From Anaerobutyricum hallii (GTDB lineage: Bacteria > Bacillota > Clostridia > Lachnospirales > Lachnospiraceae), in NCBI RefSeq assembly GCF_900209925.1, contig NZ_LT907978.1, positions 2,265,001 to 2,329,000 on the forward strand: 64,000 bases of DNA. The letters are read 5' to 3'. Positions within the stretch are counted from its first letter, which is position 1; each line of letters begins with the position of its first letter. The notes beneath the pieces were generated by a model. It worked only from the letters and a program-made list of their open reading frames with translations. It was not told where the DNA came from and ran no database searches. Of this stretch, positions 9,559-49,973 are shown piece after piece. The position numbers were made by a program, and so were the translations under genes.

Positions 9559-10104
9559 CTATTCTCCCAAAAAATCTCTAAGCTTTCTACTTCTCGTTGG
9601 ATGACGCAGCTTGCGCAGGGCCTTCGCCTCAATCTGGCGAATACGTTCTCTTGTCACTTGAAAGTCTCTTCCCACTTCTTCCAGGGTGTGTGGCTTTCCG
9701 TCTTCTAATCCAAAACGAAGTGCTAAAACCTTTTGCTCCCGATCAGACAAGGTATCCATAACTTCTTCAAGCTGTTCACGAAGTAATGTGTGGGCTGCTT
9801 CTTCTGACGGAACAGGCACATGTTCATCCTGAATAAAGTCTCCAAGGTGACTGTCTTCTTCCTCTCCAATTGGTGTTTCTAAAGAAACTGGTTCCTGTGA
9901 AATCTTAGAAACTTCAAGTATCCGCTCCACCGGAAGATTCATCGTAACCGCGATTTCTTCTGGGGTGGGTTCTCTTCCGTATTCCTGTAAAAGCCTCCTG
10001 CTCGTTCGATTAACCCGATTCATTGTCTCTACCATATGCACCGGAATCCGAATCGTCCTCGCCTGATCTGCAATCGCTCTCGTAATGGATTGCCTGATCC
10101 ACCA
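9559..10104 (-). pseudogene. rpoD: rpoD 3' half (sigma regions 2.4-4), cut off by the prophage
   Basis: This is the C-terminal part of the primary sigma factor. In frame from the core repeat it reads [20 protein letters not shown], region 3, then region 4 with [16 protein letters not shown] and the helix-turn-helix [18 protein letters not shown], ending RDFLGE. A TAA stop in phage DNA lies 12 bases before the first TGG. The first usable start is a GTG at 10041 with no good ribosome binding site, giving 160 aa. A phage-borne promoter at 10162-10190 points into it. The matching 5' half is at 49362-49973. Frame and residues are otherwise intact, so it is split rather than decayed. Confidence 0.95.
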
Positions 10105-10128
10105 GGTTAAGGTCAGTTACCGTATAAC
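10076..10128. other. Left attachment site of the prophage
   Basis: Host rpoD sequence runs to the 6-base core CCACCA (10099-10104). The phage arm GGTTAAGGTCAGTTAC followed by CGTATAAC (to 10128) is an imperfect reverse complement of the arm at the other end (18 of 24 positions). The core encodes Trp-Trp of sigma region 2.3 on the minus strand. Confidence 0.85.
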
Positions 10129-10161
10129 AAAATATGATAGAAATAAAGGAGAAGTAATTAT

Positions 10162-10190
10162 ATTATACAAGAAGAAAGAGGACGTTTCAA
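10162..10190 (-). promoter_or_regulatory. Outward promoter at the left phage end, facing the rpoD 3' half
   Basis: On the minus strand TTGAAA (10185-10190), exactly 17 bases and TATAAT (10162-10167). The predicted start is near 10155, about 115 bases before the GTG of the rpoD 3' half. The -35 box lies in the loop of the phage terminator, so the two signals overlap. Confidence 0.65.
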
Positions 10191-10198
10191 GCGCCCTC
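10170..10198 (-). terminator. Terminator of the left-end phage cassette
   Basis: On the minus strand GAGGGCG (10192-10198) pairs with CGTCCTC (10178-10184, one G-U pair) around loop CTTGAAA, followed by the weak T-rich tail TTTCTTCTT. The TGA stop of the last phage gene is inside the hairpin. Confidence 0.6.
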
Positions 10199-10504
10199 TT
10201 TTATTTTTCGCAAAACTGACCGATATTCTCGCGGATACATTGCTTCGATGGCTTTCATGTGTTCGTCAAGCACGCGTAATAAGTGCTCAAAGTCTGCGTT
10301 TCGGGCGATTTCTTTAAATTCAGAATCCGGCTCGGAACTGTAAGAGTAGTATGATGTGTTAGAAGATAGTTGGTTCGGTTGTTGATTGCTCATTAAATTA
10401 TTGCGTACATTGTATAAAATCGAAAGCCGTTCGCAAGTGGCGTAGGTTGTTTTTCCTGCCTCTAATGCCGCAATTTCGGCATTAATTTCGTCCATATTAA
10501 TCAT
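10187..10504 (-). CDS. Phage protein, left-end cassette gene 7
   Basis: A 105-aa protein with AAAGGAG 8 bases before the ATG. The N-terminal half is helical (MDEINAEIAALEAGKTTYATCERLSILY), the middle is Ser/Tyr/Asn/Gln rich and the C-terminus is charged and helical. It is the last gene of the left-end cassette. Function unknown; the spacing suggests it is read together with the 132-aa gene, which has a similarly helical N-terminus. Confidence 0.7.
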   Translation of the reverse strand: MINMDEINAEIAALEAGKTTYATCERLSILYNVRNNLMSNQQPNQLSSNTSYYSYSSEPDSEFKEIARNADFEHLLRVLDEHMKAIEAMYPREYRSVLRKIKEGA

Positions 10505-10521
10505 TGCGGCACTCCTTTCTC

Positions 10522-10920
10522 TTATCGGTCTAATTCTGCTAATGCTCTGCCTAGTGCTGCCTGATCTGTACTAGACAGATTACTGTCGTGCATCATGTCT
10601 TTGATAGTTTCTTTTACCTGCATTTTTGCATCGTTGTAAGAGTAATGCCCCCTCACATAGTGCTGACCTCTACGAGCGTTGCTATAGTCGTCGTAATCCA
10701 TGTCAGGATAACGCCCGCGACTGTATCTTCCTGACGTGTTCCAGTCGCCGCCACGGCTGTATTCGTTGCCACCTTCCAGATACATGATTTTGTCAATATT
10801 TTTAATTGTGTCTGTCAGTTTGTGGACTGCTTCTAAATCCCCGGCGCTCATATCGCCTTTGTTCGAAATCTCGTCCAGCTCTCTGCACATCATCTTTTTT
10901 AATTTGTGTAATGATTCCAT
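10522..10920 (-). CDS. Phage protein with Tyr/Arg/Asp-rich centre, left-end cassette gene 6
   Basis: A 132-aa protein. A helical N-terminus (HKLKKMMCRELDEIS and ELEAVHKL-type heptads) leads to a low-complexity centre with repeats such as YSRGRYPDMDYDDYSNARRG, then a helical C-terminus KETIKDMMHDSNLSSTDQAA. There is no signal peptide. From memory, similar small proteins recur in gut Lachnospiraceae prophages, but no function is known to me. Confidence 0.7.
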   Translation of the reverse strand: MESLHKLKKMMCRELDEISNKGDMSAGDLEAVHKLTDTIKNIDKIMYLEGGNEYSRGGDWNTSGRYSRGRYPDMDYDDYSNARRGQHYVRGHYSYNDAKMQVKETIKDMMHDSNLSSTDQAALGRALAELDR

Positions 10921-10933
10921 TTTTCGCCCTCCT

Positions 10934-11356: not shown

Positions 11357-11471
11357 GTTATCACTCCTTTTTTTAATAATAAACGGCGGAACGATTGCCC
11401 CGCCGCTATAAGCATCATCGGCACAAGCCGAACAATCCCGTCAACGCAGGAAGTTGCTAATTATAAAAATT

Positions 11472-12308: not shown

Positions 12309-12326
12309 GAAATCACTCCTTTTTAT

Positions 12327-13293: not shown

Positions 13294-13316
13294 TTTTTTG
13301 CCCTCCTTATAGTTTT

Positions 13317-13365: not shown

Positions 13366-13395
13366 CTCGCATGATTTTTAGTTATCTTTAGTTTC

Positions 13396-13647
13396 TTAAA
13401 GGCTATTTATGTACGGAATTGTGCCAGGAACTAACAAAATCTTTTCTACGGAACAACTCCACAGCCCCTGTAATCCTCTCGTGCTTATATCCATTTTCTC
13501 GGCGGCTTGCTCCTGCGTTAATCCGTCAAAAAGCAAGTACTGTACAGTTTCGCGCTCCCGCAAGGTTAAGCGGGCACACGACAAAGCGTAATCAATAAAT
13601 TGTTTATCGCCTAATTTCCAGAGTTTTTTAATCAAACTTCTGTTCAC
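13396..13647 (-). CDS. Small sigma-region-4-like HTH protein
   Basis: An 83-aa protein. LTLRERETVQYLLFDGLTQE followed by QAAEKMDISTRGLQGLWSCSVEKIL matches the helix-turn-helix pattern of sigma region 4 / LuxR-type proteins. It lacks region 2, so it cannot act alone as a sigma factor. It is the last gene of the late operon, after the holin. It may be a phage transcription regulator. Its interest rises because the phage disrupts the host primary sigma gene. Confidence 0.7.
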   Translation of the reverse strand: MNRSLIKKLWKLGDKQFIDYALSCARLTLRERETVQYLLFDGLTQEQAAEKMDISTRGLQGLWSCSVEKILLVPGTIPYINSL

Positions 13648-13681
13648 TGTATCACCTCAAACACGCAAAAATTACGTAAAT

Positions 13682-14023
13682 TTATTTCGTTTTATCCAGT
13701 CCCAGAATCGATCTAACCTTTTCTGGGAGCAAATCAGGGTTAATTTTACCGATGTTCTCCACAATAGAGCCAAGCTCCATCAAAATAATGTATACACAAA
13801 CTCCTGCGGCAATAGGCACCTGAAAGCCTAAGTCTACATATCTCTGCGCATAGTCGATAAGATACGCAAGCACCACGAGCATAATGGAGCCAAATTTATG
13901 ATACAATCCTTTCCTCATTTCTGAGGATTTCCACTCGTGGTTGGCACAGGCGGATACTCCGCCACTAGCCAAATCAAAAACTACAAAAATACAAGTTATT
14001 AAGGGTAACATAATATCTACCAT
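13682..14023 (-). CDS. Phage holin (toxin secretion/phage lysis holin type)
   Basis: A 113-aa membrane protein with about three hydrophobic segments: MLPLITCIFVVFDLASGG at the N-terminus, GSIMLVVLAYLIDYA in the middle and IAAGVCVYIILMELGS. It ends with a charged C-terminus LLPEKVRSILGLDKTK. This is typical of the PF05105 holin family, which forms lesions in the membrane at lysis. The second ATG (14023) is chosen because AGGAGG is 7 bases upstream; it is too close to the first. The lysins are about 15 kb away. Confidence 0.85.
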   Translation of the reverse strand: MVDIMLPLITCIFVVFDLASGGVSACANHEWKSSEMRKGLYHKFGSIMLVVLAYLIDYAQRYVDLGFQVPIAAGVCVYIILMELGSIVENIGKINPDLLPEKVRSILGLDKTK

Positions 14024-14086
14024 CTCCATTCCTCCTTAAAAATTATTTTTCTTTTGTTTTTATAAATTAATTAAAGCTTCCTTTAG

Positions 14087-14251: not shown

Positions 14252-14253
14252 AA

Positions 14254-21800: not shown

Positions 21801-21938
21801 TGTATGTAGACGATACCATAGCCACTGCCCATCCTCATATTTTTTCACCGGTATCTTCCAAGATATTGTAAATTTCAGATTGTCTCTAGATATAGACAGA
21901 CCGCTGGGAGCAGCAGATTTTTTATTTTTCTTTGCCAT
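18807..21938 (-). CDS. Large tail protein with fibronectin type III-like repeats
   Basis: A 1043-aa protein. It starts with a basic tail (AKKNKKSAAPSGLSISRDNL) and holds several beta-sandwich modules with FN3-type signatures, for example PKNITAMAVASDTVELTWDW followed by AKTYYFRVRLRDTSG. The C-terminus resembles a tail tip connector segment. It follows the tape measure directly (TAATG overlap). Virion FN3 domains commonly aid weak binding to cell-surface sugars. Confidence 0.75.
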   Translation of the reverse strand: MAKKNKKSAAPSGLSISRDNLKFTISWKIPVKKYEDGQWLWYRLHTKNAGASKWDWTKWKEINVGKSATKKTVALDAKNYYPASSKLLNAIEFKVKGKTKSDKKHTYTAAHSTKTFTIYAPNTPSVSYSLDDTGANKGTFTWSTSYEANDARHFARTQVQTALMTNYKGAIANARFANASYTGASGTWAITEDGSPTQSMTFCRIVRVKSRGCAGDSGWGYAYHYYSIPERPNIQSTGSKEIGSSSRYVWANWVQASPQDRPVDSMELQYAIDTPESGERYTGTSWSTGVTVAYHDYTVSADFNTDDGIAEDQIMWTRVQSTHDKKYAYSEPRVAARGALKSPSFDTVSATGTTLTINSIERNTEVPDAKTAVWMKIDNEEKGIIAITDKEGTITVTCPDVSSGTEYQIALKNFTGTSTPQNGASGIIYKLGPLMQSGWVYSETRKIAVPPKNITAMAVASDTVELTWDWSWKNADAATIAWADHEDAWISTDAPTTYDVEDRETTWHIGSLESAKTYYFRVRLRDTSGDEEVLSPWSDTVSVSLSETPTTPTLATTENYLALDDTVICSVGYTGNSKASIKIAEAINDEPVKGNDGNVVVLMMSSGMETLSETIENINKIYTANGLLSDLWNVGEIHYLKAMVTAQGGKEGAWSDSVAVEIVAKPTIDSVATNLVSEATSYNSDDVTTEATDQTVPESSEGTTNYLEQLPLTISPSFGDSSGTAKVMIVRDEDYYILRPDGLKEQHFSGEIIASFTGSETDNYSIALGDLIGQMDDGARYSIQIAFTDIYDHVAEKKIPFVVRWKHQPEVPTATVSTSEDNKTASVVVAKPTTYADGDTFDLYRMSVDRAELILENGVYGQKYVDPYPALNEYGGILVVNKTANGDYITSDSSFAWLYSDFSIEYKKAIIDFDGESIEIQYNIDCDNSWDKDFERTVYLGGSVQGDWNPAVTRDLKIDAVSISLTEPTMIEQMRRLATYPGICHVRTPDGSSFSCDIQVSEKKDHDNKMRTDFSLTIKKVDSEELDAVTEEQWSAEHPNEVT

Positions 21939-35288: not shown

Positions 35289-36690
35289 TTTTTATCCTTT
35301 CTGCAATAGCTCTTATTACATTTACAGTTACGCCGTTTCCTGCTTGTTTGTATAATTGACTATCTGAATTTACAAACTCGGCCTTTTTAAAATAATCATC
35401 GGTCCACCCTTGTAGTCTAAAACATTCTAACGGCGTTAGTCTTCTGATTGCTATGTAACATTGATATTTTTCATACCAGACCGCATACGCAACTAGTTCT
35501 TCCGATACCTGAATGAAGATTCCCTGATTACAACTCGTGTCGAGTGTGTTGGCGATTTCTTGTCCGACTCTTCCTCTTCTTGTTTTACTTCCTGGAACTG
35601 ATAAATTCACGCTATCAATGCCTACTCTACACTCGGAATAGCCTTGCTTTGTTGCTTTGGCTACTTTTATGCCCTGCGAATCAATAACTCCAATCGGTTC
35701 AATCGCCACTCCGTGTCTATCCTGTCCAGTAAGTGTAAACATCGGCTCACCATCTTCTTTGAATCTCCGTCCATTCTGACGCTTTTCTGCTCGGTCTGGT
35801 GTTAATACCGGAATTGCAATACCACTATTTTGCGCTTTATACGTTCCATATCCTTTTTGGTATCTCGCTTGCAAGCATCTAGCAACGCTAGTTGTTTCTG
35901 TTCCACTATTGCACAAATCTATAAAACACGGCAATGCTACATGATGCCCTCTCCCACCACCTTGACCAGTATCAAGAGCTTCTGTAATTCCATCAGGTGC
36001 AAATACCTGCGTATTTCTTCTGTAACCGTCCCTGTGGCCTATTATTTGAATACTATTTTCTCCGTCTGCTCTTTCGACAGGAAATACTTTTGCGGTACTT
36101 CTCCCTCTAAGATGCCCGATAATGAAGCACCTTTCTCGGTTCTGTGGCACTCCAAAATCTCTGGAGTTGAGCACTTGCCATTCTGCATCATACCCCCCCT
36201 GTTCCATTTCAATGAGCAATCGGGCGAAATCCCATCCCCCATTAACACTAAGCAAATTTTTAACGTTCTCAATGAAAAGGTAAGCGGGTTTATCTTCTTC
36301 TTTGAGCTGTCCGATAAGGTACATAACTCTGAAAAACAAGCTTGAACGGTTTCCTTGAAATCCAAGTTGTTTTCCTGCAACTGAGATGTCTTGACATGGG
36401 AATCCAAAACACCAGCAATCTGCTTTTGGAATGTCTCCGGCATATACTCTTCTAATGTCATTTGCGTACCATTCTCCATTCCTGTATTCCTCCTTCAATA
36501 TTTCTTTTCTCCGTTGCTTTAAAGGCATTTCATTTAAATATTCTCTTTGTTCTGGCGTAAGCAGGTGCATTGATGTGTAACTTGCGGTTGCAAATTTATC
36601 GAATTCGCAAAACCCGACGCATTCATGCCCCACTAATTCCATGCCTCTGCGGAATCCTCCGATTCCGGCAAAAAAATCAATAAACTTCAT
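35281..36690 (-). CDS. DNA (cytosine-5)-methyltransferase
   Basis: A 469-aa C5 methyltransferase. Motif I is FFAGIGGFRRGMELVG, motif IV GFPCQDISVAGKQLG with the catalytic Cys, motif VI FIENVKNL, motif VIII NRERCFIIGHLRG, and motif X QAGNGVTVNVIRAIAERI. No restriction endonuclease gene accompanies it, so it may protect phage DNA from host restriction. The target sequence cannot be read from this. Confidence 0.92.
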   Translation of the reverse strand: MKFIDFFAGIGGFRRGMELVGHECVGFCEFDKFATASYTSMHLLTPEQREYLNEMPLKQRRKEILKEEYRNGEWYANDIRRVYAGDIPKADCWCFGFPCQDISVAGKQLGFQGNRSSLFFRVMYLIGQLKEEDKPAYLFIENVKNLLSVNGGWDFARLLIEMEQGGYDAEWQVLNSRDFGVPQNRERCFIIGHLRGRSTAKVFPVERADGENSIQIIGHRDGYRRNTQVFAPDGITEALDTGQGGGRGHHVALPCFIDLCNSGTETTSVARCLQARYQKGYGTYKAQNSGIAIPVLTPDRAEKRQNGRRFKEDGEPMFTLTGQDRHGVAIEPIGVIDSQGIKVAKATKQGYSECRVGIDSVNLSVPGSKTRRGRVGQEIANTLDTSCNQGIFIQVSEELVAYAVWYEKYQCYIAIRRLTPLECFRLQGWTDDYFKKAEFVNSDSQLYKQAGNGVTVNVIRAIAERIKNE

Positions 36691-39313: not shown

Positions 39314-39883
39314 CTATTCCAATCCCAGTACTTTCAAGGTTTCAACATACTGTCTGCGTGTAATTTCATAAAATGATTTCAGTCCCATGTTATTCCCCCA
39401 TTCTGTGATTTCCTGTTCTGTCATGCCTTTCTTTCGCATCAGGCTGCATAATTTTTTTGCCTCCTGTTCTGATACGGTCTCATTTCCTTTGTATTCGTCT
39501 GTATCTGCATCTTTGCTGTCGTCTAGAAGAAACAAACTGCTTAATGCGTATTTCCTAGCGTAGCTTGACGTTGCTCCCGTAATTTGTGAGGAATCCATCC
39601 CCTTTCTGTTTTCTTCTTCTCTGGCGTATGCAGTGGTACTAATCGCTCCTCCATCTTCTACATCTTGTAAAATTGCTGTTGCTTTGACATAGATTCTGCC
39701 GCCTATTATGACAATTTTATCTTCCAGAATCAAAAGCAATCCTTGTTCGTCTAGTAACGGCTTTGCCGCTTCGTAAATATCTTCTAGGCTACGGTACCAG
39801 TATTTCCCGAATTTGCTCCATCGAGACTTAGGTGTTTTGAGGCGGCACTGAATTTTTTGCAACTTTTTGTGAATATCTCCCAT
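39314..39883 (-). CDS. ERF-family single-strand annealing protein
   Basis: A 189-aa protein. SKFGKYWYRSLEDIYEAAKP at the N-terminus and GMDSSQITGATSSYARKYAL with SSLFLLDDSKDADTD are the ERF hallmark. It promotes strand annealing during phage recombination. The C-terminus (EQEAKKLCSLMRKKGMTEQE) is helical. GAGGTAAG precedes the ATG. Confidence 0.85.
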   Translation of the reverse strand: MGDIHKKLQKIQCRLKTPKSRWSKFGKYWYRSLEDIYEAAKPLLDEQGLLLILEDKIVIIGGRIYVKATAILQDVEDGGAISTTAYAREEENRKGMDSSQITGATSSYARKYALSSLFLLDDSKDADTDEYKGNETVSEQEAKKLCSLMRKKGMTEQEITEWGNNMGLKSFYEITRRQYVETLKVLGLE

Positions 39884-40737: not shown

Positions 40738-41389
40738 AACCTAGCCTCTCTTTCTTTCCTGCTATCCAATCCCCTAACGCTCCTTCACATTGTTCCGGGG
40801 TATAATTTTTATTATCCTGCTCTAACCGCCCAACTATTTCTCCCAGTGTGGGTAGTTCTGGTACTGTTTCTTTTCGCTCTATCGTCCCCGCCGCTCTTAT
40901 CATTTCTTGCAGTTTTGGTGGGTACTTGTCTATCTCCTTTTGTGCTTCTAACGCCGCTCTGTAGCTTCTGAGGAAGTTTGACTGTATGACCGTCTGAAAG
41001 TCCGCTGAATCTACTACCGCCCAGTCATGGAGCGTCTGTGGCGTTCCTACTGCCTTTTGCAACGTAGGAGGCAGTTTGTCAAACTCCTCTCTGTAACCGT
41101 AAATCCCATTACTGCACGCCTTTGCCACTGTTGCCCATGCTTCCTGCTCGCTCAGGTAGCTGCTTTCTGCCTTGAGTTTGCTGGCACACTCCAAAATGTC
41201 TGCCGGTGTAGGCGGGAACTTGCCTGTTGTCATGTACATCTGTGCCGCTACGCTTATTGTCTGGTAGTCGTTATTTTTGCCTACCAGGCGGTACCACATG
41301 TCTAATGCCTGTTCGTTGGGAACAAATCCCGGAGCCGTGTAGACGGTTTTTAGTGCGGCCACGATTTTAGAAAACTCCGAAATCGTCAT
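40721..41389 (-). CDS. Replicative helicase loader (G39P-like)
   Basis: A 222-aa protein. The N-terminus (FSKIVAALKTVYTAPGFVPN, ALDMWYRLVGKNNDYQTISV, MTTGKFPPTPADILECAS) matches SPP1 G39P-type loaders that deliver the replicative helicase. No helicase gene was seen in the phage, so it may recruit the host helicase. It overlaps the initiator gene by 23 bases. Confidence 0.75.
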   Translation of the reverse strand: MTISEFSKIVAALKTVYTAPGFVPNEQALDMWYRLVGKNNDYQTISVAAQMYMTTGKFPPTPADILECASKLKAESSYLSEQEAWATVAKACSNGIYGYREEFDKLPPTLQKAVGTPQTLHDWAVVDSADFQTVIQSNFLRSYRAALEAQKEIDKYPPKLQEMIRAAGTIERKETVPELPTLGEIVGRLEQDNKNYTPEQCEGALGDWIAGKKERLGYGCND

Positions 41390-42146
41390 ACATTCCGCCT
41401 CCCTCCTGTTCTTTCTGTGCTGCCCAGTGCTGTATGTCTCCGTATAGTCGGTCGTTAATGTTCTTCGTGTTGTCGTTACCTGTCTTCAGCTCGAAAAGCC
41501 CTAGCCACTCTTTATCCAATGACTGGTCTATAATCTGTTTCATCAGTCCAACATCACCGCCAGATAATTCATGTAACTTTTTAAGTAATGCTTTCAAGGC
41601 TCTATCTGTTCGGACTGGTTTTCTAATCTTCTTCCGCATGGAAAGAAATTCCATAAACTTATTGTTTAGCTCCTCGTCGTCAAAGTATCTCGCGGGCGTA
41701 TCTTTATCTTTAGTATTATTACTAGTATTATTATTAGCATTATATATATTAGTATTATTGGTGGTCATTTTGACTATACCCCCATGGTCATTTTGACTAT
41801 ACCCCATGGTCATTTTGACTATACCCCCATGGTCATTTTGACTATACCCCATGGTCATTTTGTCTATAGGGGTGTCAGCTTCTTTATGGGCCATATAGCG
41901 GTTAAATTTCACGCCGCTAATCTCCTCTACTCTCTTTTCAACTATTCCTCGGTCTACAAGATTTTCAATGCTTCTTTGTGCAGTTCTTTTTGACACGCCA
42001 AGAAATTCGGAAATATATTTCAATGACCCCTTAAATTCTGATTCGCCATCCTGCGAAAAGCCGTAAATAAGGGCATATGTGAGGAGTTCATTCCCCTTTA
42101 ACTGTAAATCTGATATCATCCAATCTTGAATAACGATATATGCCAT
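41367..42146 (-). CDS. Replication initiator (winged-helix type), carries internal iterons
   Basis: A 259-aa protein. N-terminal winged helix (LQLKGNELLTYALIYGFSQD, LGVSKRTAQRSIENLVDRGI), then a linker holding two copies of MTMGYSQNDHGGIVK and an Asn/Thr-rich run, and a C-terminal helical domain (VGLMKQIIDQSLDKEWLGLF). The DNA of the linker is a run of 22/23-bp repeats, as in initiator genes that contain their own origin. AGGAGG precedes the ATG. Confidence 0.82.
   Translation of the reverse strand: MAYIVIQDWMISDLQLKGNELLTYALIYGFSQDGESEFKGSLKYISEFLGVSKRTAQRSIENLVDRGIVEKRVEEISGVKFNRYMAHKEADTPIDKMTMGYSQNDHGGIVKMTMGYSQNDHGGIVKMTTNNTNIYNANNNTSNNTKDKDTPARYFDDEELNNKFMEFLSMRKKIRKPVRTDRALKALLKKLHELSGGDVGLMKQIIDQSLDKEWLGLFELKTGNDNTKNINDRLYGDIQHWAAQKEQEGGGMYDDFGVF
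41763..41872. repeat. Five iteron-like repeats, candidate phage replication origin
   Basis: GGTCATTTTGACTATACCCC starts at 41763, 41786, 41808, 41831 and 41853 (spacing 23, 22, 23, 22). The fifth copy is diverged (TGTCTATAGGGG end). They sit in the linker of the initiator gene next to a very AT-rich tract (41700-41760), which could be the unwinding region. Confidence 0.7.
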
Positions 42147-42519: not shown

Positions 42520-43218
42520 CTACACCTCAAATCTCTGTTGACGGTTATACTCGTCAATTCTCAACTTTGTATTTGTTTTCGGTTCCCAGTTGTCTACATA
42601 GTCAATAGCCTCCTCATATCGTTTACGAGGGATGTTGTTCCGGCTGTTAACTTTAAATCTGTCTTGCAAATCTCTGTTACACTCTGCGAATACAACTTTA
42701 CTGATATATGCATATGCTTCTGTATCTTTTCCGCCTAGTGCGTTCAGGACTGCCTTATTGACGTGCTGTCGCAAGGTTTGCTGTTGACCGTAGTCAATCA
42801 CCATGTTGCTCTCAAGGCTCTTAATACGGTCTTCGTGGTCGTCTATCATGCCCAACTGAATACGCATCATTTCTTGAGGAGATAACTGTTTCTGGTAGCT
42901 CCCTGTCTTTCTGATGGATGGGAGAACCTCTCCGGCTACCCAGTCGGTAAAGCGTTCTGCACTTTCTTTGCGGCTCTGGAAGATTACTTTGTAAAGATTA
43001 AGTTCGTTCACAAAGTTTGCATTTTGTTTTCTTCCTACACTGTCGATGACCATACCAGTAGTAACCCCATCGGGTTTTAACCTTGATTTGACTCTGCTAG
43101 GTTGTTCAAGGCCCAATGCGTGGCAAACATCCGCTAAGCAGAAGTACGGTTCGTCATTAATTATCTGAGTCCGAATTGAACCGAACTCATTGTTTTCGAA
43201 GATTTGAATATTTTTCAT
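42520..43218 (-). CDS. Phage antirepressor (BRO-N / ORF6C type)
   Basis: A 232-aa protein. The BRO-N domain has FGSIRTQIINDEPYFCLADV then VNELNLYKVIFQSRKESAER, and the C-terminal ORF6C-like domain has GGKDTEAYAYISKVVFAECN with KRYEEAIDYVDNWEPKTNTK. Such proteins counter CI-like repressors. A perfect palindromic operator (43237-43253) lies directly upstream, so the repressor or Cro probably controls it. Confidence 0.88.
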   Translation of the reverse strand: MKNIQIFENNEFGSIRTQIINDEPYFCLADVCHALGLEQPSRVKSRLKPDGVTTGMVIDSVGRKQNANFVNELNLYKVIFQSRKESAERFTDWVAGEVLPSIRKTGSYQKQLSPQEMMRIQLGMIDDHEDRIKSLESNMVIDYGQQQTLRQHVNKAVLNALGGKDTEAYAYISKVVFAECNRDLQDRFKVNSRNNIPRKRYEEAIDYVDNWEPKTNTKLRIDEYNRQQRFEV

Positions 43219-43235
43219 CTATTCGCCTTCTTTCT

Positions 43236-43254
43236 TGTTGAATTAAATTCAACA
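43236..43254. promoter_or_regulatory. Palindromic operator before the antirepressor gene
   Basis: GTTGAATTAAATTCAAC is a perfect 17-base palindrome (8 bp each side of one base) between the Cro-like stop and the antirepressor start. The same motif recurs imperfectly at 43520-43536. Confidence 0.65.
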
Positions 43255-43256
43255 TT

Positions 43257-43457
43257 TTAGTTAAAAAAAATATCGTCCCTTTCTTTCTTAGTCAACCTAA
43301 GAATATTTGTTAATGCTACAATTTCCGAAGCTCTAAAATCAGGTTTATTCATTCTGTTATAGAAAGACTCTCTAGTCATGCCCATTTTTCTAGCTACGAA
43401 AGAAATACTCATTCCAGAATCTTCTATCTTTTTTCTAAGTGCCTTAACGTCTGCCAA
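43257..43457 (-). CDS. Cro-like HTH regulator
   Basis: A 66-aa protein with TTG start and AAAGGGG upstream. One helix-turn-helix domain: SGMSISFVARKMGMTRESFY followed by NRMNKPDFRASEIVALTNIL. It diverges from the repressor gene across the switch region and is the first gene of the early operon, as expected for Cro. Confidence 0.82.
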   Translation of the reverse strand: MADVKALRKKIEDSGMSISFVARKMGMTRESFYNRMNKPDFRASEIVALTNILRLTKKERDDIFFN

Positions 43458-43491
43458 GGTATCACCCCTTTCTTTTTTTGTTTGCGTGATT

Positions 43492-43590
43492 TCCTTTCAC
43501 GCTCTTACTATACCACGTTGTTGAATTTGTGTCAACACTTTTAAATAAAAATGTTGATTTATTTTCACACCTATGCTATATTGATAATCG
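43492..43590. promoter_or_regulatory. Divergent switch promoters and operators
   Basis: Minus strand: TTGACA (43530-43535), 17 bases, TATAGT, for cro and the early operon. Plus strand: TTGATT (43554-43559), 17 bases, TATATT, for the repressor. The imperfect palindrome GTTGAATTTGTGTCAAC (43520-43536) overlaps the minus -35 box, and a half-like site TGTTGATTT overlaps the plus -35 box. Confidence 0.72.
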
Positions 43591-43605
43591 TAGAAAGGAG
43601 GAAAA

Positions 43606-43953
43606 ATGATACAATTATACAAGAACATCAAGGAACGTCGTGTACAAATCGGAATGTCTCAAGATGAACTAGCAAAGAAAACAGGGTACACGAGCCGCTC
43701 ATCTATTGCCAAAATCGAAAAAGGAGAAGTTGATTTGCAACAATCAAAAATTGAGCTGTTTGCGAAAGCTTTAGGTGTTAGTCAGCCAGAGTTAATGGGT
43801 TGGGAAGAAAACGCAACAGTAGAAAACGCCGAATTACTTGCCGAGATAGCAATGGACTTTGAGTTATTAGGATACGCAGAAAAAATACTACGTATGGAAT
43901 GTAGCCGCAAATATAAAGTTTACGGCTACATTGACAGAATAACAGAGGAATAA
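43606..43953 (+). CDS. CI-like phage repressor (XRE family, short)
   Basis: A 115-aa protein. N-terminal helix-turn-helix (KERRVQIGMSQDELAKKTGY, SSIAKIEKGEVDLQQSKIEL), then a short acidic tail. It lacks the C-terminal peptidase domain of LexA/CI-type repressors, so RecA-dependent self-cleavage is not expected. Relief must come from another route, such as the antirepressor or the small gene at 43968-44075. AAAGGAGG precedes the ATG. Confidence 0.85.
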   Translation: MIQLYKNIKERRVQIGMSQDELAKKTGYTSRSSIAKIEKGEVDLQQSKIELFAKALGVSQPELMGWEENATVENAELLAEIAMDFELLGYAEKILRMECSRKYKVYGYIDRITEE

Positions 43954-43958
43954 CTAAG

Positions 43959-43991
43959 GTGTGGGGACTAGCACCCCCACTCCTTTTTTAA
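43959..43991 (+). terminator. Terminator of the repressor gene
   Basis: GTGGGG (43961-43966) pairs with CCCCAC (43975-43980), followed by TCCTTTTTTAATTT. It overlaps the 3' end of the convergent 35-aa gene. Confidence 0.65.
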
Positions 43992-44075
43992 TTTGTTTGC
44001 AAACGCAAAAACAAATTTACAAAAATGTTCGTCGTTACAATTTTCAATCAGTTCAATTAATTTGTCTTTATACAT
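43968..44075 (-). CDS. 35-aa protein, probably SOS-controlled, convergent to the repressor
   Basis: MYKDKLIELIENCNDEHFCK then FVFAFANKLKKEWGC. Helical and amphipathic, with GAGGATG upstream of the ATG. It is read toward the repressor gene from a promoter whose spacer is filled by a LexA-like box (44105-44116). Its transcript or protein could relieve repression after DNA damage, since the repressor itself lacks a cleavage domain. Function is inference. Confidence 0.55.
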   Translation of the reverse strand: MYKDKLIELIENCNDEHFCKFVFAFANKLKKEWGC

Positions 44076-44098
44076 CGCTTCACATCCTCTCACGCTTA

Positions 44099-44127
44099 AT
44101 TATAGAACATTCGTTCTGACTTATCAA
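44099..44127 (-). promoter_or_regulatory. Promoter with LexA-like box in the spacer
   Basis: On the minus strand TTGATA (44122-44127), 17 bases and TATAAT (44099-44104). The spacer holds GAACATTCGTTC (44105-44116), a GAAC-N4-GTTC palindrome as in Firmicutes LexA boxes. Confidence 0.65.
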
Positions 44128-44286
44128 GAGTTTTTGTTATAATATTTTTATGTTTTTGTTAAAGAAAATATGCAGATTTATTCAGTTTTATAATGACAAA
44201 TCATTTTATTTATTGTATAATTTATTTACAACAAACCATTTTGCTAATATTTGCACTATGGTAATAATAAAAAAGGAGCAGAAAAT

Positions 44287-44928
44287 ATGAGCAAGGAAAA
44301 AACTAAAGTTTGTAAGCATTGCAAAGAAGAAATTGACGCAAAAGCTAAAGTGTGTCCTCATTGCCGGAAGAAACAGGGCGGCAAGCTGAAATGGGTAGTT
44401 ATCATTATCATCGTTCTGGCTGTTTTAGGCATGGCAATGGGTAGTGGTGACGATAGCAGTTCTTCCACTGATCCTCAGACAAAGAGTACTACAGCAACAA
44501 CAGCGGCTAAGAAAGAAACTGCTAAAAAGGAAGAAGCAAAAGAGAAAGACAGCGTAAAGGTTGGTGAATCTTTTGAGAATGACGGTTTAAAAGTAACTGC
44601 TAAAAAGGCTGAATTTGGATATGATGCAGGAGAATACTTTACTCCGAAAGATGGATGCGAATATGTAGCTGTAGACTTTACTTGCGAAAATGTTGCAGAA
44701 AAAGGTGACAAATATGTGTCTGTATCTGATTGCGAATGCTATGCGGACAATTCAGCTTGCGAACAGCAATACATAGGAAACAGTGATTTTGTTAACACTA
44801 ATTTGTCTCCGGGAAAGAACGTAAGCTTTACAGCATACTACGAAATGCCAAAAGATGCAAAGAAAGTAATTTTAGAATATAGTGCTTCGTTCTGGACAGA
44901 TAAGAAGATAACTATTAATTTAAAATAA
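44287..44928 (+). CDS. Zinc-ribbon membrane protein with DUF4352-type domain
   Basis: A 213-aa protein. An N-terminal zinc ribbon (VCKHCKEEIDAKAKVCPHCR) is followed by a membrane helix (WVVIIIIVLAVLGMAMG), a Thr/Lys/Glu linker, and an external beta domain (VKVGESFENDGLKVTAKKAE, GCEYVAVDFTCENVAEKG) like DUF4352. The start at 44287 has AAAGGAG 9 bases upstream. Placed next to the repressor, it is probably expressed in the lysogen and may alter the cell surface or block superinfection. Confidence 0.78.
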   Translation: MSKEKTKVCKHCKEEIDAKAKVCPHCRKKQGGKLKWVVIIIIVLAVLGMAMGSGDDSSSSTDPQTKSTTATTAAKKETAKKEEAKEKDSVKVGESFENDGLKVTAKKAEFGYDAGEYFTPKDGCEYVAVDFTCENVAEKGDKYVSVSDCECYADNSACEQQYIGNSDFVNTNLSPGKNVSFTAYYEMPKDAKKVILEYSASFWTDKKITINLK

Positions 44929-45001
44929 TTAGTCCACTGATAGGACAACCAACAAGAGGGGAGAGCCAATTCTTCTCTCTTTTCTTTTTCCTCAAAATAA
45001 T

Positions 45002-45028
45002 AAAAAGCACCTGTCGAAACAAGTGCTT
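45002..45028 (-). terminator. Hairpin terminator next to the left inverted repeat
   Basis: An 11-bp stem with one mismatch (AAAGCACCTGT with ACAAGTGCTTT). On the minus strand it is followed by TTTTTATTATTTT. Confidence 0.55.
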
Positions 45029-45033
45029 TCGTT

Positions 45034-45054
45034 CTTCCTGCCTTCGTACCTCCG
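45034..45054. repeat. Left 21-bp inverted repeat of the right-end segment
   Basis: Begins CTTCCTGCCTTCG. It is a perfect reverse complement of 47989-48009. With one mismatch allowed the match extends three more bases. Confidence 0.85.
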
Positions 45055-45068
45055 CGGCAAGTATTTAT

Positions 45069-45191
45069 TTGACTTTGTGATAATATTTTGCTATAATATA
45101 GTTGTCCGCATATTGTATATGCGTGTGAGTAGAAACTATTTTATTAACTATTAAGTTAATGGAGAAGGAGGCTGTTTTCAGCCTCTTTTTT
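45069..45191 (+). ncRNA. Candidate small phage RNA of about 85 nt
   Basis: Promoter TTGACT (45069-45074), 17 bases, TATAAT (45092-45097). An intrinsic terminator lies only about 70 bases on: GAGGCTG-TTTT-CAGCCTC and TTTTTT (45168-45191). The predicted RNA (about 45104-45191) has a short hairpin GCATATTGTATATGC. It carries no well-placed ribosome binding site and start. The terminator also overlaps the 3' end of the convergent 160-aa gene. Confidence 0.6.
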
Positions 45192-45660
45192 CTGTGTCTA
45201 ATAGCATCTGCAAATAATCTTCTCCCACATCCTCATGCGGCATTTCCCACAATTTTTCTGCCGTGTATCCTAGTTTGTGTAATTCATGCACTCTTTGTTT
45301 ATTTTCTGTTTCCTCGTCATTGCAGGCGTACAAAAAATCATACAAATCAGGGAATCGTTCTCTTAAGGCGGCATGAGTGTTCTTTTCCACTATGTCCGTT
45401 ATCTTTCTCACTTCGGTTTTTCTGTCAGAGACTAATGCTTCGTGAATTTTTGACAGTGCCCACGAATCTACTTCGTCATGTCTTCCTTGCTTCCAAAGTT
45501 TAGCACGTCTTTCTCGCAGATCTAGCGCGAGTGATACAAAGAAAGCTTGTTCTGTTTTCTCTTTGAGTTCGTAAAAGTCCTCTTTTGCAGTTCCTGTAGA
45601 TTCATTTTTCTTCAAAAAATCCAACATTTCTTTTTTTACTCTTTCTGCTCCTTCTATCAT
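45178..45660 (-). CDS. Hypothetical phage protein, charged and helical
   Basis: A 160-aa protein (EGAERVKKEMLDFLKKNEST, EKTEQAFFVSLALDLRERRA, PDLYDFLYACNDEETENKQR). No membrane segment and no known motif. It follows the 140-aa paralog gene by 15 bases in the same direction. Its stop lies inside the shared terminator at 45168-45191. Confidence 0.65.
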   Translation of the reverse strand: MIEGAERVKKEMLDFLKKNESTGTAKEDFYELKEKTEQAFFVSLALDLRERRAKLWKQGRHDEVDSWALSKIHEALVSDRKTEVRKITDIVEKNTHAALRERFPDLYDFLYACNDEETENKQRVHELHKLGYTAEKLWEMPHEDVGEDYLQMLLDTEKRG

Positions 45661-45675
45661 TTTTTCTCCTCCTTA

Positions 45676-46098
45676 TTAAAAAGTTTCCATTAATTTAGAA
45701 CTTACAAGACTAGCATAATCTTCGGCTAATTCTTCTTTTGTCATATAGTTTCCAAAACAAATTTCAGCCTTGTAATTTTCTTTAGCAGTTAAGAAAAGAT
45801 TAATAAACCATTTAGCCTCGTTTACTTTTTCGATGTCAACCAGATTTTTTTCTCTGATTGAAACTAAGTAATTGTTTTCACTTTCTTTGTTGAGCTTCAG
45901 ACTGAGATTTAATGCTTTGATTACGCCGTCTTTAATGTCCTGTGCCCATGCGATCTGTTTTACGGAACCTTTTGTGATTTCTCCCATATGTTTTGCTTCC
46001 TTCCATGCTTTTTTTAATCCTTCGGAGATGCAAAGACCTGCCTTTTTAACTAACTCCCATGCTCTTTTCATAATGTTTGATAAATTGTATTTTTTCAT
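45676..46098 (-). CDS. Paralog 1 of a divergent pair around an HTH regulator
   Basis: A 140-aa protein whose start, MKKYNLSNIMKRAWELVKKA then LKKAWKEAK, matches that of the divergent gene at 46579. The rest differs (SLKLNKESENNYLVSIREKN). The same SNIMK-AW motif is seen in small proteins of clostridial mobile elements (memory); function unknown. Promoter and leader are an inverted copy of those of paralog 2, so both should respond to the same regulator. Confidence 0.68.
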   Translation of the reverse strand: MKKYNLSNIMKRAWELVKKAGLCISEGLKKAWKEAKHMGEITKGSVKQIAWAQDIKDGVIKALNLSLKLNKESENNYLVSIREKNLVDIEKVNEAKWFINLFLTAKENYKAEICFGNYMTKEELAEDYASLVSSKLMETF

Positions 46099-46129
46099 TT
46101 CTTTGTATCTCCTCTCTTGATTTACTCAC

Positions 46130-46173
46130 ATTATACACGATAGTGACTATTATGTCAAGAGAAAAATACACGA
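46130..46173 (-). promoter_or_regulatory. Promoter and operators of paralog 1
   Basis: On the minus strand TTGACA (46153-46158), 17 bases, TATAAT (46130-46135). The word TCGTGTA (minus strand) occurs over the -10 box (46134-46140) and before the -35 box (46167-46173). Confidence 0.7.
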
Positions 46174-46191
46174 AAATATATTATTTTTTTC

Positions 46192-46220
46192 TTGATATTT
46201 ATTTCAAAATAATGTACTAT
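46192..46220 (+). promoter_or_regulatory. Promoter of the central HTH gene
   Basis: TTGATA (46192-46197), 17 bases, TACTAT (46215-46220), about 30 bases before the ATG, with AAAGGAGG between. Confidence 0.6.
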
Positions 46221-46250
46221 ATATTTATAACGATTAAAGGAGGTTTCAAA

Positions 46251-46496
46251 ATGGAAACACGATCAAGAAAAAGAAGTAACATATATAAAGGTAGTATCTC
46301 ATATAGTAATTTATGGGACACGCTAGAACGCAGAGGGTTAAAGCGTTCTAACCTATTAGATAAGGAAAGTTTTAATCTTTCCCCGGCACTGGTCAACAAG
46401 CTGCGGCACGACAGAAACGTGAATATAGATACAATTATGTATTTGTGTGAGAAATTAGACTGTCAGGTGTGCGATATCGTGGAATATAAAAAATAA
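46251..46496 (+). CDS. Cro/C1-type HTH regulator between two divergent paralogs
   Basis: An 81-aa protein. A basic N-terminus (METRSRKRSNIYKGSISYSN) leads to LWDTLERRGLKRSNLLDKES, SPALVNKLRHDRNVNIDTIM and CEKLDCQVCDIVEYKK, the pattern of small Cro/C1 regulators. It lies between two genes with matching promoters and TCGTGTA operators, so it probably represses both flanking genes. Confidence 0.78.
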   Translation: METRSRKRSNIYKGSISYSNLWDTLERRGLKRSNLLDKESFNLSPALVNKLRHDRNVNIDTIMYLCEKLDCQVCDIVEYKK

Positions 46497-46503
46497 TACA
46501 TTT

Positions 46504-46547
46504 TCGTGTATTTTTCTCTTGACATAATAGACATTATCGTGTACAAT
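46504..46547 (+). promoter_or_regulatory. Promoter and operators of paralog 2
   Basis: TTGACA (46519-46524), 17 bases, TACAAT (46542-46547). TCGTGTA occurs at 46504-46510 and 46537-46543, mirror-image to the paralog 1 promoter. The following leader (TCAAGAGAGGAGATACAAAG) is the same on both sides. Confidence 0.7.
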
Positions 46548-46578
46548 AAGATTAAATCAAGAGAGGAGATACAAAGAA

Positions 46579-46926
46579 ATGAAAAAAACAGTTAAAAGAT
46601 ACAACTTATCAAACATTATGAAAAACGCATGGGAAACAAAGAAAAGATATCCTAGAATGAGTTTCAGTGCTTGCTTAAGAGATGCATGGAGAGAAGCGAA
46701 ACAGGCAGTATTGGCTAAGGAAATGCCAGAAGTAGTTAACGTTATGTTTAGCGGTCGCGACTTAACAATCAATCTTGAGAACGGAGAAATATCTGGAGAA
46801 ACTTTCGAAGTAAAAAAACACATCAAATACATTTTTGATGCAAAATGGAATCCAGCTAAGAAAGTATGGGTATCTCAGCTTAAAAATCTTAGAGCAGTTG
46901 TAGCTAAAGAGTGTGTAGTTTACTAA
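46579..46926 (+). CDS. Paralog 2 of the divergent pair
   Basis: A 115-aa protein. KRYNLSNIMKNAWETKKRYP then ACLRDAWREAKQA matches paralog 1. The C-terminal half has beta-type segments (VNVMFSGRDLTINLENGEIS, WVSQLKNLRAVVAKECVVY). Same leader as paralog 1. It starts a plus-strand series reaching the integrase. Function unknown. Confidence 0.68.
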   Translation: MKKTVKRYNLSNIMKNAWETKKRYPRMSFSACLRDAWREAKQAVLAKEMPEVVNVMFSGRDLTINLENGEISGETFEVKKHIKYIFDAKWNPAKKVWVSQLKNLRAVVAKECVVY

Positions 46927-46941
46927 AAAGGAGGAAGAAAA

Positions 46942-47319
46942 ATGAAAGTTTTAGAAGCGATCAAAAATAGCAGCTATGATAGTTTTGGAATTAGAAGAAC
47001 CTGTGCCGATGAAGATTATAAAGTCGGCGACATCGCCCGCAACTCCTTTTACTGGGACGTTGAGAACGATTTATCAACATATCAGACAGAGCCAGAGGAG
47101 GCGGAAGGAACGTCCGCAAGAGCCATCCTTTTTGACGACATGGACAGCGATGAGGGAAATCTTGAGGTCATCAAGAAGACCATTGAAAGATTTAAAAAAG
47201 AATATCCTTGCTGCCTTCCAGAGGAGAAATTTGTTGTTCTTGGCTCAGATCGCGTAGAATATGACATCAACGATGGTGACATCATCATGGAGGATGCAGA
47301 AGTTTTATATATCTTTTAG
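46942..47319 (+). CDS. Hypothetical phage protein, acidic
   Basis: A 125-aa protein starting MKVLEAIKNSSYDSFGIRRT with AAAGGAGG before the ATG. Acidic (SYWDVENDL-like, FDDMDSDEGNLEVIKKTIER) and probably mixed alpha/beta, ending in VEYDINDGDIIMEDAEVLYI. No family recognised. It follows paralog 2 by 15 bases and is probably cotranscribed. Confidence 0.65.
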   Translation: MKVLEAIKNSSYDSFGIRRTCADEDYKVGDIARNSFYWDVENDLSTYQTEPEEAEGTSARAILFDDMDSDEGNLEVIKKTIERFKKEYPCCLPEEKFVVLGSDRVEYDINDGDIIMEDAEVLYIF

Positions 47320-47330
47320 GAGGAAATAAC

Positions 47331-47957
47331 ATGTCAAGGAGATCGTTGGTAGGGGTAACCCGCGGTGATATGCAAGCTGTCGAATACCTCGGGAACAAAA
47401 TATATCGGTGTAAATGCATTCGATGCGGGTGCGAGCAGATACTGAGTAGCTCACACTTAAAAGACACTACCAGGTGTCAAGTGTGCGGGCAAAAATTCAA
47501 AAAAGACATTCGCGGGAAAAGATTCGGCTCGCTGACTGTTATTGATTATGATAAGGACGGAAAATGGCTTTGTAGATGTGATTGTGGGAATACCGTCAGC
47601 GTAAAATCTAATAATTTGAAGAGTGGAAATACTCGCTCTTGCAGAAAGTGCCATAAAGGTTTTTTTGACAACCCCTATTTGGTGGAGGGCACGTTAGTGA
47701 CCGATCTCACACAAGGAGTCAGAAAAAATAATACGTCCGGAACTACTGGGGTATACTACAATAAGCGAAAGCAAAAATGGTATGCAGCAATGATGTTTCA
47801 AGGGCAAAATTATTTTTTTGGTTATTATAGTAATAAAAAAGACGCCATTGCTGCAAGAAAAGAGGCGGAAGAAAAAATGCATGGTCCATTTTTGGAATGG
47901 TACGCAGAACATTATCCCAAACAATGGGAAACCAAGAAGAAAAAAGCTAATAGATAG
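47331..47957 (+). CDS. Zinc-finger / AP2-domain DNA-binding protein
   Basis: A 208-aa protein. Cys pairs near residues 28-58 (YRCKCIRCGCEQ, TRCQVCGQ), then GKRFGSLTVIDYDKDGKWLC and RCDCGNTVSVKSNNLKSGNT with RSCRKC, as in proteins linked to homing endonucleases. The C-terminus TGVYYNKRKQKWYAAMMFQG then NYFFGYYSNKKDAIAARKEA is an AP2 domain. No nuclease motif was seen. It may bind the flanking repeats. Confidence 0.75.
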   Translation: MSRRSLVGVTRGDMQAVEYLGNKIYRCKCIRCGCEQILSSSHLKDTTRCQVCGQKFKKDIRGKRFGSLTVIDYDKDGKWLCRCDCGNTVSVKSNNLKSGNTRSCRKCHKGFFDNPYLVEGTLVTDLTQGVRKNNTSGTTGVYYNKRKQKWYAAMMFQGQNYFFGYYSNKKDAIAARKEAEEKMHGPFLEWYAEHYPKQWETKKKKANR

Positions 47958-47988
47958 ACTTAGCAGCTATAATTGGCAGCACCCGCCC

Positions 47989-48009
47989 CGGAGGTACGAA
48001 GGCAGGAAG
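47989..48009. repeat. Right 21-bp inverted repeat, abutting the integrase start
   Basis: Perfect reverse complement of 45034-45054. It ends 8 bases before the integrase ATG and includes part of its ribosome binding site region (GGAAGGGG). Confidence 0.85.
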
Positions 48010-48017
48010 GGGAATAA

Positions 48018-49355
48018 ATGAAAAGAGCCGCTTTATACGTGCGAGTAAGCACGCAAGAGCAGAAAAACAGCGGATTGTCCGTTGATTCACAGATAGATGC
48101 ACTTGAAAAATATTGTGATGAGCAAGGTTATACGGTTGCTGGCGTTTATAACGATGCCGGCATATCTGCACGTAAAAAATACACAAAACGCCCTGCCCTC
48201 TTACAGTTACTTGAGGATTGCAAGAAACATGAAATTGATATAATACTCTTTACACGCCTTGACAGGTGGTTTAGAGCCGTTGCGGGGTACTACGAGGTAC
48301 AAAGTGTCCTTGATGCGTGTAAAGTGCCTTGGCGGGCTATCTGGGAGGATTACGAGACAGAAACAAGTCAGGGAATTTTTAAAGTTAACATCATGTTATC
48401 TGTAGCGCAGGCAGAGGCTGACAGGGATAGCGAAAAAATACGGTCTGTTATGGAGTTTAAACGCCAGAACAAAGAGTATATAGGTGGAAAAGTGCCGGTA
48501 GGTTATCGCGTAGAAGGGAAAAAGATTGTAAAAGACGAAAAGACGTGTGGAATGATCGAGGATATGTTTGAGCATTATTTCCAGACGTTTTCCAAATGGG
48601 GTACCGCCGACTATATTTTGAGCAAATACCCTGATTTTATAAGGACTAGAAATAGGATAGTAAAAATTATGTCCAGCCCGGCGTACCATGGGGAAATGTA
48701 CGGTGTAAAGAACTACTGCGAGCCATACATAACAGAGGAACAGGCGCAAAGAATTAAAGAGGTATCCAGCCAAAAAAGTTGGGTAGATTGCAAAAGGCGG
48801 ATTTATATTTTCTCTGGGCTGATACGTTGCCCGATTTGCGGTTATAAATTTTCTGGGCGCACGATGGCCAAGAAAGAAAAGAGGTATAAAGTGTATCAAT
48901 GCCCTCGATCTGCCGCGAAAAAGCATAAAACATACACGCGATCTGAACCAAAATTAGAAACATATATGCTTAACCACATCGAAGAAAAAATACAGTCAGA
49001 CGTATTAAGGGCAGAAGGTCGTGTGAAGGCAGCCGGAAACGATGTGGAAAAAAGAAAGAAAAAATTATCCAGTGAGTTGGGAAGAATCAACAAGATGTTT
49101 GAAAAAGGCAGGATAACAGAAGAATACTATGACGAAAGATATGAGGCTATATCAAATGAATTAAAAGAACTATCCCAGACCGCCGCAACGGAAGAACTAG
49201 AAACTAAGAAAAAAATACAAAGCAGATTTCCTGACGGTTGGAAAGATATGTATATGCAGTTAGACGAACAAGGTAAGCAGGTGTTTTGGAAAAGCATTGT
49301 AAAAGAAATAAAAATATCCCCCAACGAATTTGTGGAGGATATTATATTTTTTTAG
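48018..49355 (+). CDS. Large serine recombinase (phage integrase)
   Basis: A 445-aa enzyme that inserts and excises the phage. The catalytic domain begins MKRAALYVRVSTQEQ with the nucleophile Ser11, followed by ARKKYTKRPALLQLLEDCKK and FTRLDRWFRAV. The recombinase domain follows, with a zinc ribbon (LIRCPICGYKFSGRT) and a C-terminal coiled coil (EKRKKKLSSELGRINKMFEK). It lies next to the right attachment site, converging on the rpoD 5' half with 6 bases between. Confidence 0.93.
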   Translation: MKRAALYVRVSTQEQKNSGLSVDSQIDALEKYCDEQGYTVAGVYNDAGISARKKYTKRPALLQLLEDCKKHEIDIILFTRLDRWFRAVAGYYEVQSVLDACKVPWRAIWEDYETETSQGIFKVNIMLSVAQAEADRDSEKIRSVMEFKRQNKEYIGGKVPVGYRVEGKKIVKDEKTCGMIEDMFEHYFQTFSKWGTADYILSKYPDFIRTRNRIVKIMSSPAYHGEMYGVKNYCEPYITEEQAQRIKEVSSQKSWVDCKRRIYIFSGLIRCPICGYKFSGRTMAKKEKRYKVYQCPRSAAKKHKTYTRSEPKLETYMLNHIEEKIQSDVLRAEGRVKAAGNDVEKRKKKLSSELGRINKMFEKGRITEEYYDERYEAISNELKELSQTAATEELETKKKIQSRFPDGWKDMYMQLDEQGKQVFWKSIVKEIKISPNEFVEDIIFF

Positions 49356-49360
49356 TTTTT

Positions 49361-49412
49361 GTTATGCAGTAACTAGTCGTAACCACCATGTAGCATATGT
49401 CGAAAATTTATA
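49361..49412. other. Right attachment site of the prophage
   Basis: The phage arm GTTATGCAGTAACTAGTCGT runs into AA and the core CCACCA (49383-49388), followed by host rpoD sequence. Joined to the left phage arm it makes an attP of about 50 bp with imperfect dyad symmetry centred on a CC dinucleotide. Confidence 0.85.
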
Positions 49413-49973
49413 TCCTTTACGATAATCAAACTTCTCTACGGCTTTAATTAGACCAAGATTTCCTTCCTGTATCAAATCAAGGAACTGCATTCCTCTTCCG
49501 GAATAGCGTTTGGCAATGCTTACGGTGAGGCGAAGATTCGCTTCAGACAATTTCTTTTTTGCTTCCTCGTCTCCCATTTCCATACGCTTGGCAAGCTCAA
49601 TTTCCTCTTCAGAACTTAGCAAAGGAATTCTTCCGATTTCTTTTAAATACATGCGAACCGGATCTTCTGCACTTCCTCTTTCAGAGTGTAAAATCTCCGA
49701 TTCATCCTCTCTTTTTGCTTCGTATTCCTTCTCCACTTCTTCTGGAAACACATCACTTTGTTCTATCTCATCAGAATCTATTTCAGACATGGTCAGTACA
49801 TCGATTTTTCTTTCTTCAAGATAAGAAACAATCCCTTCTAACTGTGCCGGTGTCAGTGAACCCTTCTGAAAAACTTCTTTTATCTCCTGAAGTTCCACTA
49901 CATTTTTCTGCTTCTTTGCTCTCTCAAGCAGACAATTCATCTGGCTGCCAAAAATCTGTTCTTTCCTGCCCAA
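49362..49973 (-). pseudogene. rpoD: rpoD 5' half (sigma regions 1.2-2.3), cut off by the prophage
   Basis: The N-terminal part of the primary sigma factor. It has region 1.2 ([20 protein letters not shown]), region 2.1-2.2 ([20 protein letters not shown] then [20 protein letters not shown]) and region 2.3 ([13 protein letters not shown]). Phage DNA then adds LRLVTA and a stop. The 203-aa product lacks the region 2.4 helix and regions 3-4. The sequence is intact up to the insertion. The other half is at 9559-10104. The fragment could still bind core polymerase through region 2. Confidence 0.95.

Follow-up and report, generated by a model that had tools for sequence, protein, structure and literature searches.

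The staphylococcal hlb phages insert within a dispensable gene and inactivate it until their excision restores it, and in the SigO-RsoA pair the functions of a sigma factor are split over two polypeptides that come from dedicated, separate genes. Two further systems combine a phage-type element with a recombinase and an interrupted host gene. The skin element of Clostridioides difficile is a phage-type element that splits sigK, and its recombinase resembles the large serine recombinases (PMC5025042). SP-beta of Bacillus subtilis is described as an active prophage with a recombinase, whose precise excision during sporulation rebuilds spsM (PMC4191935). Here we describe a prophage that splits an rpoD-type gene, termed rpoD2, in a 64,000-nucleotide (nt) stretch of the Anaerobutyricum hallii genome (GCF_900209925.1, contig NZ_LT907978.1, positions 2,265,001 to 2,329,000; referred to as the window, with positions counted from its first letter). 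We consider it very likely that the phage sits in a dispensable second primary-type sigma gene, and that the lysogen is an RpoD2 knock-out living on an intact paralogue, RpoD1.

The split rpoD gene and its intact paralogue

The initial annotation had placed a prophage at the Trp-Trp codons (region 2.3) of an rpoD-type gene, and reading the flanks and joining them in silico bears this out. The locus is made up as follows, protein lengths being in amino acids (aa) and the order of rpoD2 and its two neighbours having been confirmed by computed synteny.

8543-9373, minus strand: downstream neighbour of rpoD2, which we take to be a trmK-like gene
9559-10098, minus strand: rpoD2 3' part, resuming with IRQSITRA; regions 2.4, 3 and 4 and the natural stop, its front lacking any common start codon
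10099-10104: CCACCA core, where the left end of the prophage meets the rpoD2 3' part
10105-49388: prophage with a tailed-phage gene set, 39,284 bp (the difference of the two core positions)
49383-49388: CCACCA core, where the right end of the prophage meets the rpoD2 5' part
49362-49973, minus strand: rpoD2 5' part, 203 aa from a TTG; regions 1.1, 1.2 and 2.1-2.3 up to Trp-Trp
50097-51911, minus strand: upstream neighbour of rpoD2, presumably dnaG (primase) from its sequence and position

Frame translation agrees with the ending proposed for the 5' half, namely FSTYATWW followed by six phage-encoded residues (LRLVTA) and a stop. Joining the flanks at CCACCA gives, as had been claimed, an uninterrupted gene, with a whole RpoD in one open frame of 381 codons from stop to stop, or 376 aa counted from the TTG. 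Pfam regions 1.1, 1.2 and 2 are found in the 5' part and regions 3 and 4 in the 3' part. The model NF006666 (length 370) is matched at positions 13-195 by the 5' part and at positions 193-369 by the 3' part, each of which, scanned singly, scores under the whole-protein cut-off. No stop or frameshift is present in either half, and the joined RpoD2 has the RpoD-type regions 1.2, 2, 3 and 4 of a primary (group-1) sigma factor.

There are 15 Sigma70_r2 matches in the single-contig genome of 3,515,670 bp. The best of these is an intact protein, RpoD1, whose residues 3-367 align to the solved SigA chain 7ckq_F with 474 bits.

C1:2489875-2490975: RpoD1, 367 aa, about 175 kb from the rpoD2 5' part, adjoining a gene that we take to be nadE-like

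A second primary sigma gene elsewhere had been suggested as one way for the lysogen to cope, and the search for a second full rpoD found just such a gene. The premise that the split gene is the housekeeping rpoD therefore fails. The paradox of a broken essential gene must also be rejected, since RpoD1 is intact here and ten of the 24 genus genomes, which all possess RpoD1, have no rpoD2 at their dnaG locus; these absences, together with the one split copy, argue against RpoD2 being essential.

The genus comparison covered the window genome and 23 relatives (identified by G numbers). RpoD1 was found in all 23, with an identity to the RpoD1 of the window genome of 92-98% in 18, of 86-87% in four (G014, G015, G019 and G023), and of 76% over a partial gene in G021. 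The unbroken gene that was to be looked for in related strains is present in 12, where an intact rpoD2 lies between dnaG and trmK (with trmK 1.8 kb further away in G006). It is split in the window and absent from this locus in ten genomes (G003, G010, G011, G012, G014, G015, G016, G019, G021 and G023), in which at most 286 nt separate the aligned ends of dnaG and trmK; in G013 the contig stops 153 nt past dnaG. Further rpoD genes lie elsewhere in G012 and G016, both in the RpoD1 clade, and G015 has a distant third rpoD (38%) that is included in neither tree. In a DnaG tree, G011, which has lost rpoD2, groups with G004, which holds it (100/99), and the losers G003, G010, G012 and G016 form a group of their own (100/99). 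If the DnaG tree reflects the species tree, this means two or more losses of rpoD2.

Within the genus, RpoD2 evolves faster than RpoD1, as identities to three relatives are 89.1, 78.1 and 80.5% for RpoD2 versus 97.8, 96.2 and 95.4% for RpoD1. The ratio of nonsynonymous to synonymous rates (dN/dS) against G017 is 0.019 for RpoD1, 0.035 for the joined RpoD2 and 0.071 for its 5' half, while the 3' half and the other RpoD2 pairs have saturated dS and give no ratio. Because both halves are free of stops and frameshifts and the joined gene has this dN/dS, the split looks recent.

Across the family, at least two RpoD-type matches (E 1e-70) were seen in 27 of 60 genomes, one per genus, including that of the window, where the second match is the 3' fragment. 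Ten of the other 26 two-copy genera were checked, and in every one of them one copy adjoins dnaG and trmK and the other lies elsewhere. A family tree was built from 16 of these 20 copies (the non-dnaG copies of G385, G432, G441 and G452 were dropped, as the frame-picking motif was unmatched in them), with seven genus rows left out. In this tree RpoD1 falls together with the copies from G137, G431 and G436 that are not linked to dnaG (100/99). This, and the separate clades of the two proteins, led us to reject RpoD1 as a recent copy of RpoD2. Both RpoD trees are midpoint-rooted and contain long rows, and long branches meet in one of the two. RpoD2 appears, on the grounds of synteny, to be the ancestral gene of the dnaG locus, and RpoD1 appears to have displaced it as the conserved primary sigma of the genus.

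We propose that a temperate tailed phage with a large serine integrase entered a bacterial attachment site (attB) within RpoD2 at the dnaG-rpoD-trmK locus, very probably after the paralogue had taken over housekeeping. RpoD1, intact and encoded elsewhere, would carry the housekeeping transcription of the genus, with RpoD2 as an accessory copy that several sister species are missing. The lysogen would then be an RpoD2 knock-out, in which we expect RpoD2 to be inactive. The 203-aa 5' fragment, without regions 2.4-4, may still be made and could bind core RNA polymerase, and the 3' part is probably untranslated. Precise excision, which we would expect in this strain as well, would rebuild RpoD2.

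Several observations weigh against this reading. Most typical of the family is the copy linked to dnaG, which all ten two-copy genera checked possess, and RpoD2 forms its own clade (100/100) that is not joined to the other dnaG-linked copies. One TAG interrupts the RpoD1 frame of G013. All RpoD regions are retained in RpoD2, which is under purifying selection when relatives are compared, at dS values that are high or saturated, so it is not junk and its loss may carry a cost. Which copy is primary in this strain we infer from conservation and losses. Lastly, the phage contig that provides the joined attachment site (MT837225.1, see below) is a relative of the window prophage, and its GenBank record is marked UNVERIFIED and has no annotation.

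Attachment sites and prophage gene content

The phage contig MT837225.1, from human faeces in Mexico, encodes an integrase 90.6% identical to that of the window prophage. Its integrase end runs across CCACCA directly into the sequence of the opposite end of the window prophage, a joint that reads as the phage attachment site (attP) that a related phage should have once excised and circular. From this joined attP it follows that the site-specific integration is real, and the short core shared by the two prophage ends (attL and attR), along with a recoverable attP, is what characterises a site-specific prophage. In the joined phage ends the core is flanked by inverted arms of 15 nt, which match at 14 positions in MT837225.1 (0 of 2000 base shuffles as good) and at 13 positions in the window phage (12 of 2000 as good). 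The available part of a virome study of Mexican children (PMC8361208) names no MT83 or MT84 accession, and its link to MT837225.1 is unproven.

No empty copy of attB is present in the assembly: a 23-nt site, searched at up to 3 mismatches through the whole genome, matches the right junction alone. At the target codons, RpoD1 DNA matches the attB of rpoD2 at 35 of 50 positions, CCACCA included. One IMG/VR contig is identical to the window over 43018-49355, perhaps coming from the same strain or genome and so not independent, and an exact scan of IMG/VR with one phage att arm gave 0 matches.

The gene set suggests a complete-looking temperate tailed phage, with packaging, head, tail and lysis genes all present. 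The recombinase combines a Resolvase domain with a zinc-ribbon recombinase region in a protein of more than 400 aa, as in large serine integrases, and has no visible damage. The genes assigned are listed here.

48018-49355, plus strand: large serine integrase, 445 aa, adjoining the right end; Resolvase PF00239 and Zn_ribbon_recom PF13408, phrog_95 integrase
47331-47957, plus strand: HNH endonuclease-like
41367-42146, minus strand: replication initiation-like
39314-39883, minus strand: Erf-like single-stranded DNA annealing protein
35281-36690, minus strand: C-5 cytosine DNA methylase
32943-34172, minus strand: terminase large subunit
31579-32937, minus strand: portal protein
28329-29270, minus strand: endolysin
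26740-27660, minus strand: major head protein
21938-24262, minus strand: tape measure protein
13682-14029, minus strand: holin-like, 42.7 bits to phrog_199

A 363-nt part of the methylase gene is 77.5% identical to methylase genes of C. difficile phages. At 13399-13647 on the minus strand, an 83-aa phage protein has a weak match to sigma region 4 (PF04545, 21.1 bits against a cut-off of 24.1; phrog_3512, E 4.5e-4), and is perhaps a late-gene activator. The prophage also contains an inverted repeat (46055-46189 and 46488-46634; 100 nt at 93% and 50 nt at 84%) that flanks two divergent genes, whose products have similar N-termini (20 of 38 residues), and the segment has the same orientation in MT837225.1.

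Outside the prophage, a 255-aa RpoD-like protein is encoded immediately upstream of dnaG (51998-52765, minus strand). It has regions 1.1, 2 and 3, lacks Trp-Trp, and its region 4 match of 19.4 bits is under the cut-off and not full. Of the other 23 genomes of the genus, 22 have it next to dnaG, G014 being the exception, whereas a search at E 1e-6 of 1-3 kb of sequence upstream of dnaG in 10 other genera showed none; it is a conserved sigma relative. Two tRNA-Glu(CTC) genes lie near each other on the plus strand, at 3586-3659 and 3733-3806.

Alternative explanations for the arrangement

A regulatory switch, in which conditional excision (on sporulation, induction or in stationary phase) rebuilds RpoD2 as happens with skin/sigK or SP-beta/spsM, is in our judgement quite unlikely. 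In-silico excision does give an exact, in-frame join that leaves the host frame intact, neither gene half has decayed, the integrase shows no damage and the att arms are in place, and the related phage has a joined attP; however, the same signs are expected of any recent inducible prophage within a gene. Two Spo0A-type genes in the host also pass the cut-off of their family, and a SigK-like gene, itself unsplit, scores below the cut-off of its own family, so that a link between excision and sporulation is conceivable. Against this, the arrangement is not conserved, as the integrase was found in one of the 24 genus genomes and rpoD2 is split in one of 13, with 12 relatives unbroken. No directionality factor was recognised, and rpoD2 itself is missing from the locus in the ten genomes named above. 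Read most simply, this is a recent lysogen in a dispensable gene. The two Spo0A-type genes stand in tandem (G000:C1:1173424-1175085).

A broader proposal, which we also regard as improbable though worth stating, makes the prophage a reversible RpoD2 switch that sets the cell to one or two primary sigmas. In the lysogen RpoD2 would be gone and a 203-aa fragment that binds core may be gained, excision would restore RpoD2, and the takeover by the paralogue would have freed the old locus as a home for the phage. If true, one phage toggles a cell between one and two primary sigma factors.

It is also very doubtful that the 203-aa product acts as a dominant-negative, competing with RpoD1 for RNA polymerase and tuning transcription in the lysogen. 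Besides regions 1.1 and 1.2, the fragment holds positions 3-58 of the 71 in the region 2 profile, and both its native start and its upstream dnaG context are undisturbed, but truncated sigma fragments are often unstable.

That both fragments are made and cooperate in a two-part sigma, like SigO-RsoA, is hard to credit, although the initial annotation had listed the two fragments acting together among its possibilities. A Shine-Dalgarno-like GGAGGG is seen by eye ahead of the TTG of the 5' frame, a separately encoded RpoD-like protein conserved next to dnaG lacks a full region 4, and a promoter-like site at the phage end is directed into the 3' part.

10162-10190, minus strand: promoter-like site TTGAAA-17-TATAAT (11 of 12), at the phage end, oriented into the rpoD2 3' part and overlapping with a terminator-like stem

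Such sites are close to chance, however, as the scan found 3 and 2.1 were expected, so this one may be due to chance. Between the phage stop and the GTG at 10041, the 3' frame offers rarer starts such as CTG or ATT but no ATG, GTG or TTG. The first common start thus lies past region 2.4, which neither fragment would contain without the use of a rare start. Finally, an assembly chimera is scarcely believable given the shared 6-nt core, the in-frame reconstitution, the predicted attP in a separate phage contig and a genome assembled as one contig.

Rarity and comparison with known systems

Narrow term searches of the open-licence literature, which leaves most subscription journals outside, found no report of a prophage within rpoD. 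In an IMG/VR sample, 80 of 134 contigs with an RpoD relative were examined. The Trp-Trp motif stands in an open frame in 71 of the 80, all of which continue for 133-185 residues beyond it, so no split rpoD was seen among the 71 contigs that could be judged; the other nine showed no such motif in plus frames. Around relatives of the integrase (34-46% identical), no rpoD was found by tblastn (E 1e-3) in the stretches fetched from 11 loci (L042, L043 and L045-L053). An order-wide integrase search at E 1e-90 returned 2 of 392 genomes, that of the window itself and one with a match at 38%.

What makes the locus of interest is that a dnaG-linked rpoD, apparently displaced by a paralogue and lost more than once, here serves as a phage attachment site. 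Whether a housekeeping sigma can be replaced by a duplicate, and what role the old copy then plays, becomes a testable question in this genus.

The skin element (in Bacillus subtilis and C. difficile) resembles our locus in being a recombinase-bearing, phage-type element that splits a sigma-factor gene. It differs in that skin is a prophage-like element in the gene of a sporulation sigma, with regulated excision shown, whereas here a complete-looking phage occupies one of two primary-type sigma genes. SP-beta is likewise a recombinase-bearing prophage whose exact excision rebuilds a host gene; its target spsM, however, is a polysaccharide synthesis gene, and excision during sporulation has been shown for SP-beta. 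SigO-RsoA shares with our case the division over two polypeptides, but the 3' fragment here has no common start before region 2.4. The hlb phages match it in their insertion within a coding sequence, in the loss of the gene in lysogens and in its restoration by excision. Unlike theirs, the target here is the conserved Trp-Trp codons of an RpoD-type sigma factor, and survival of the lysogen probably depends on a paralogue.

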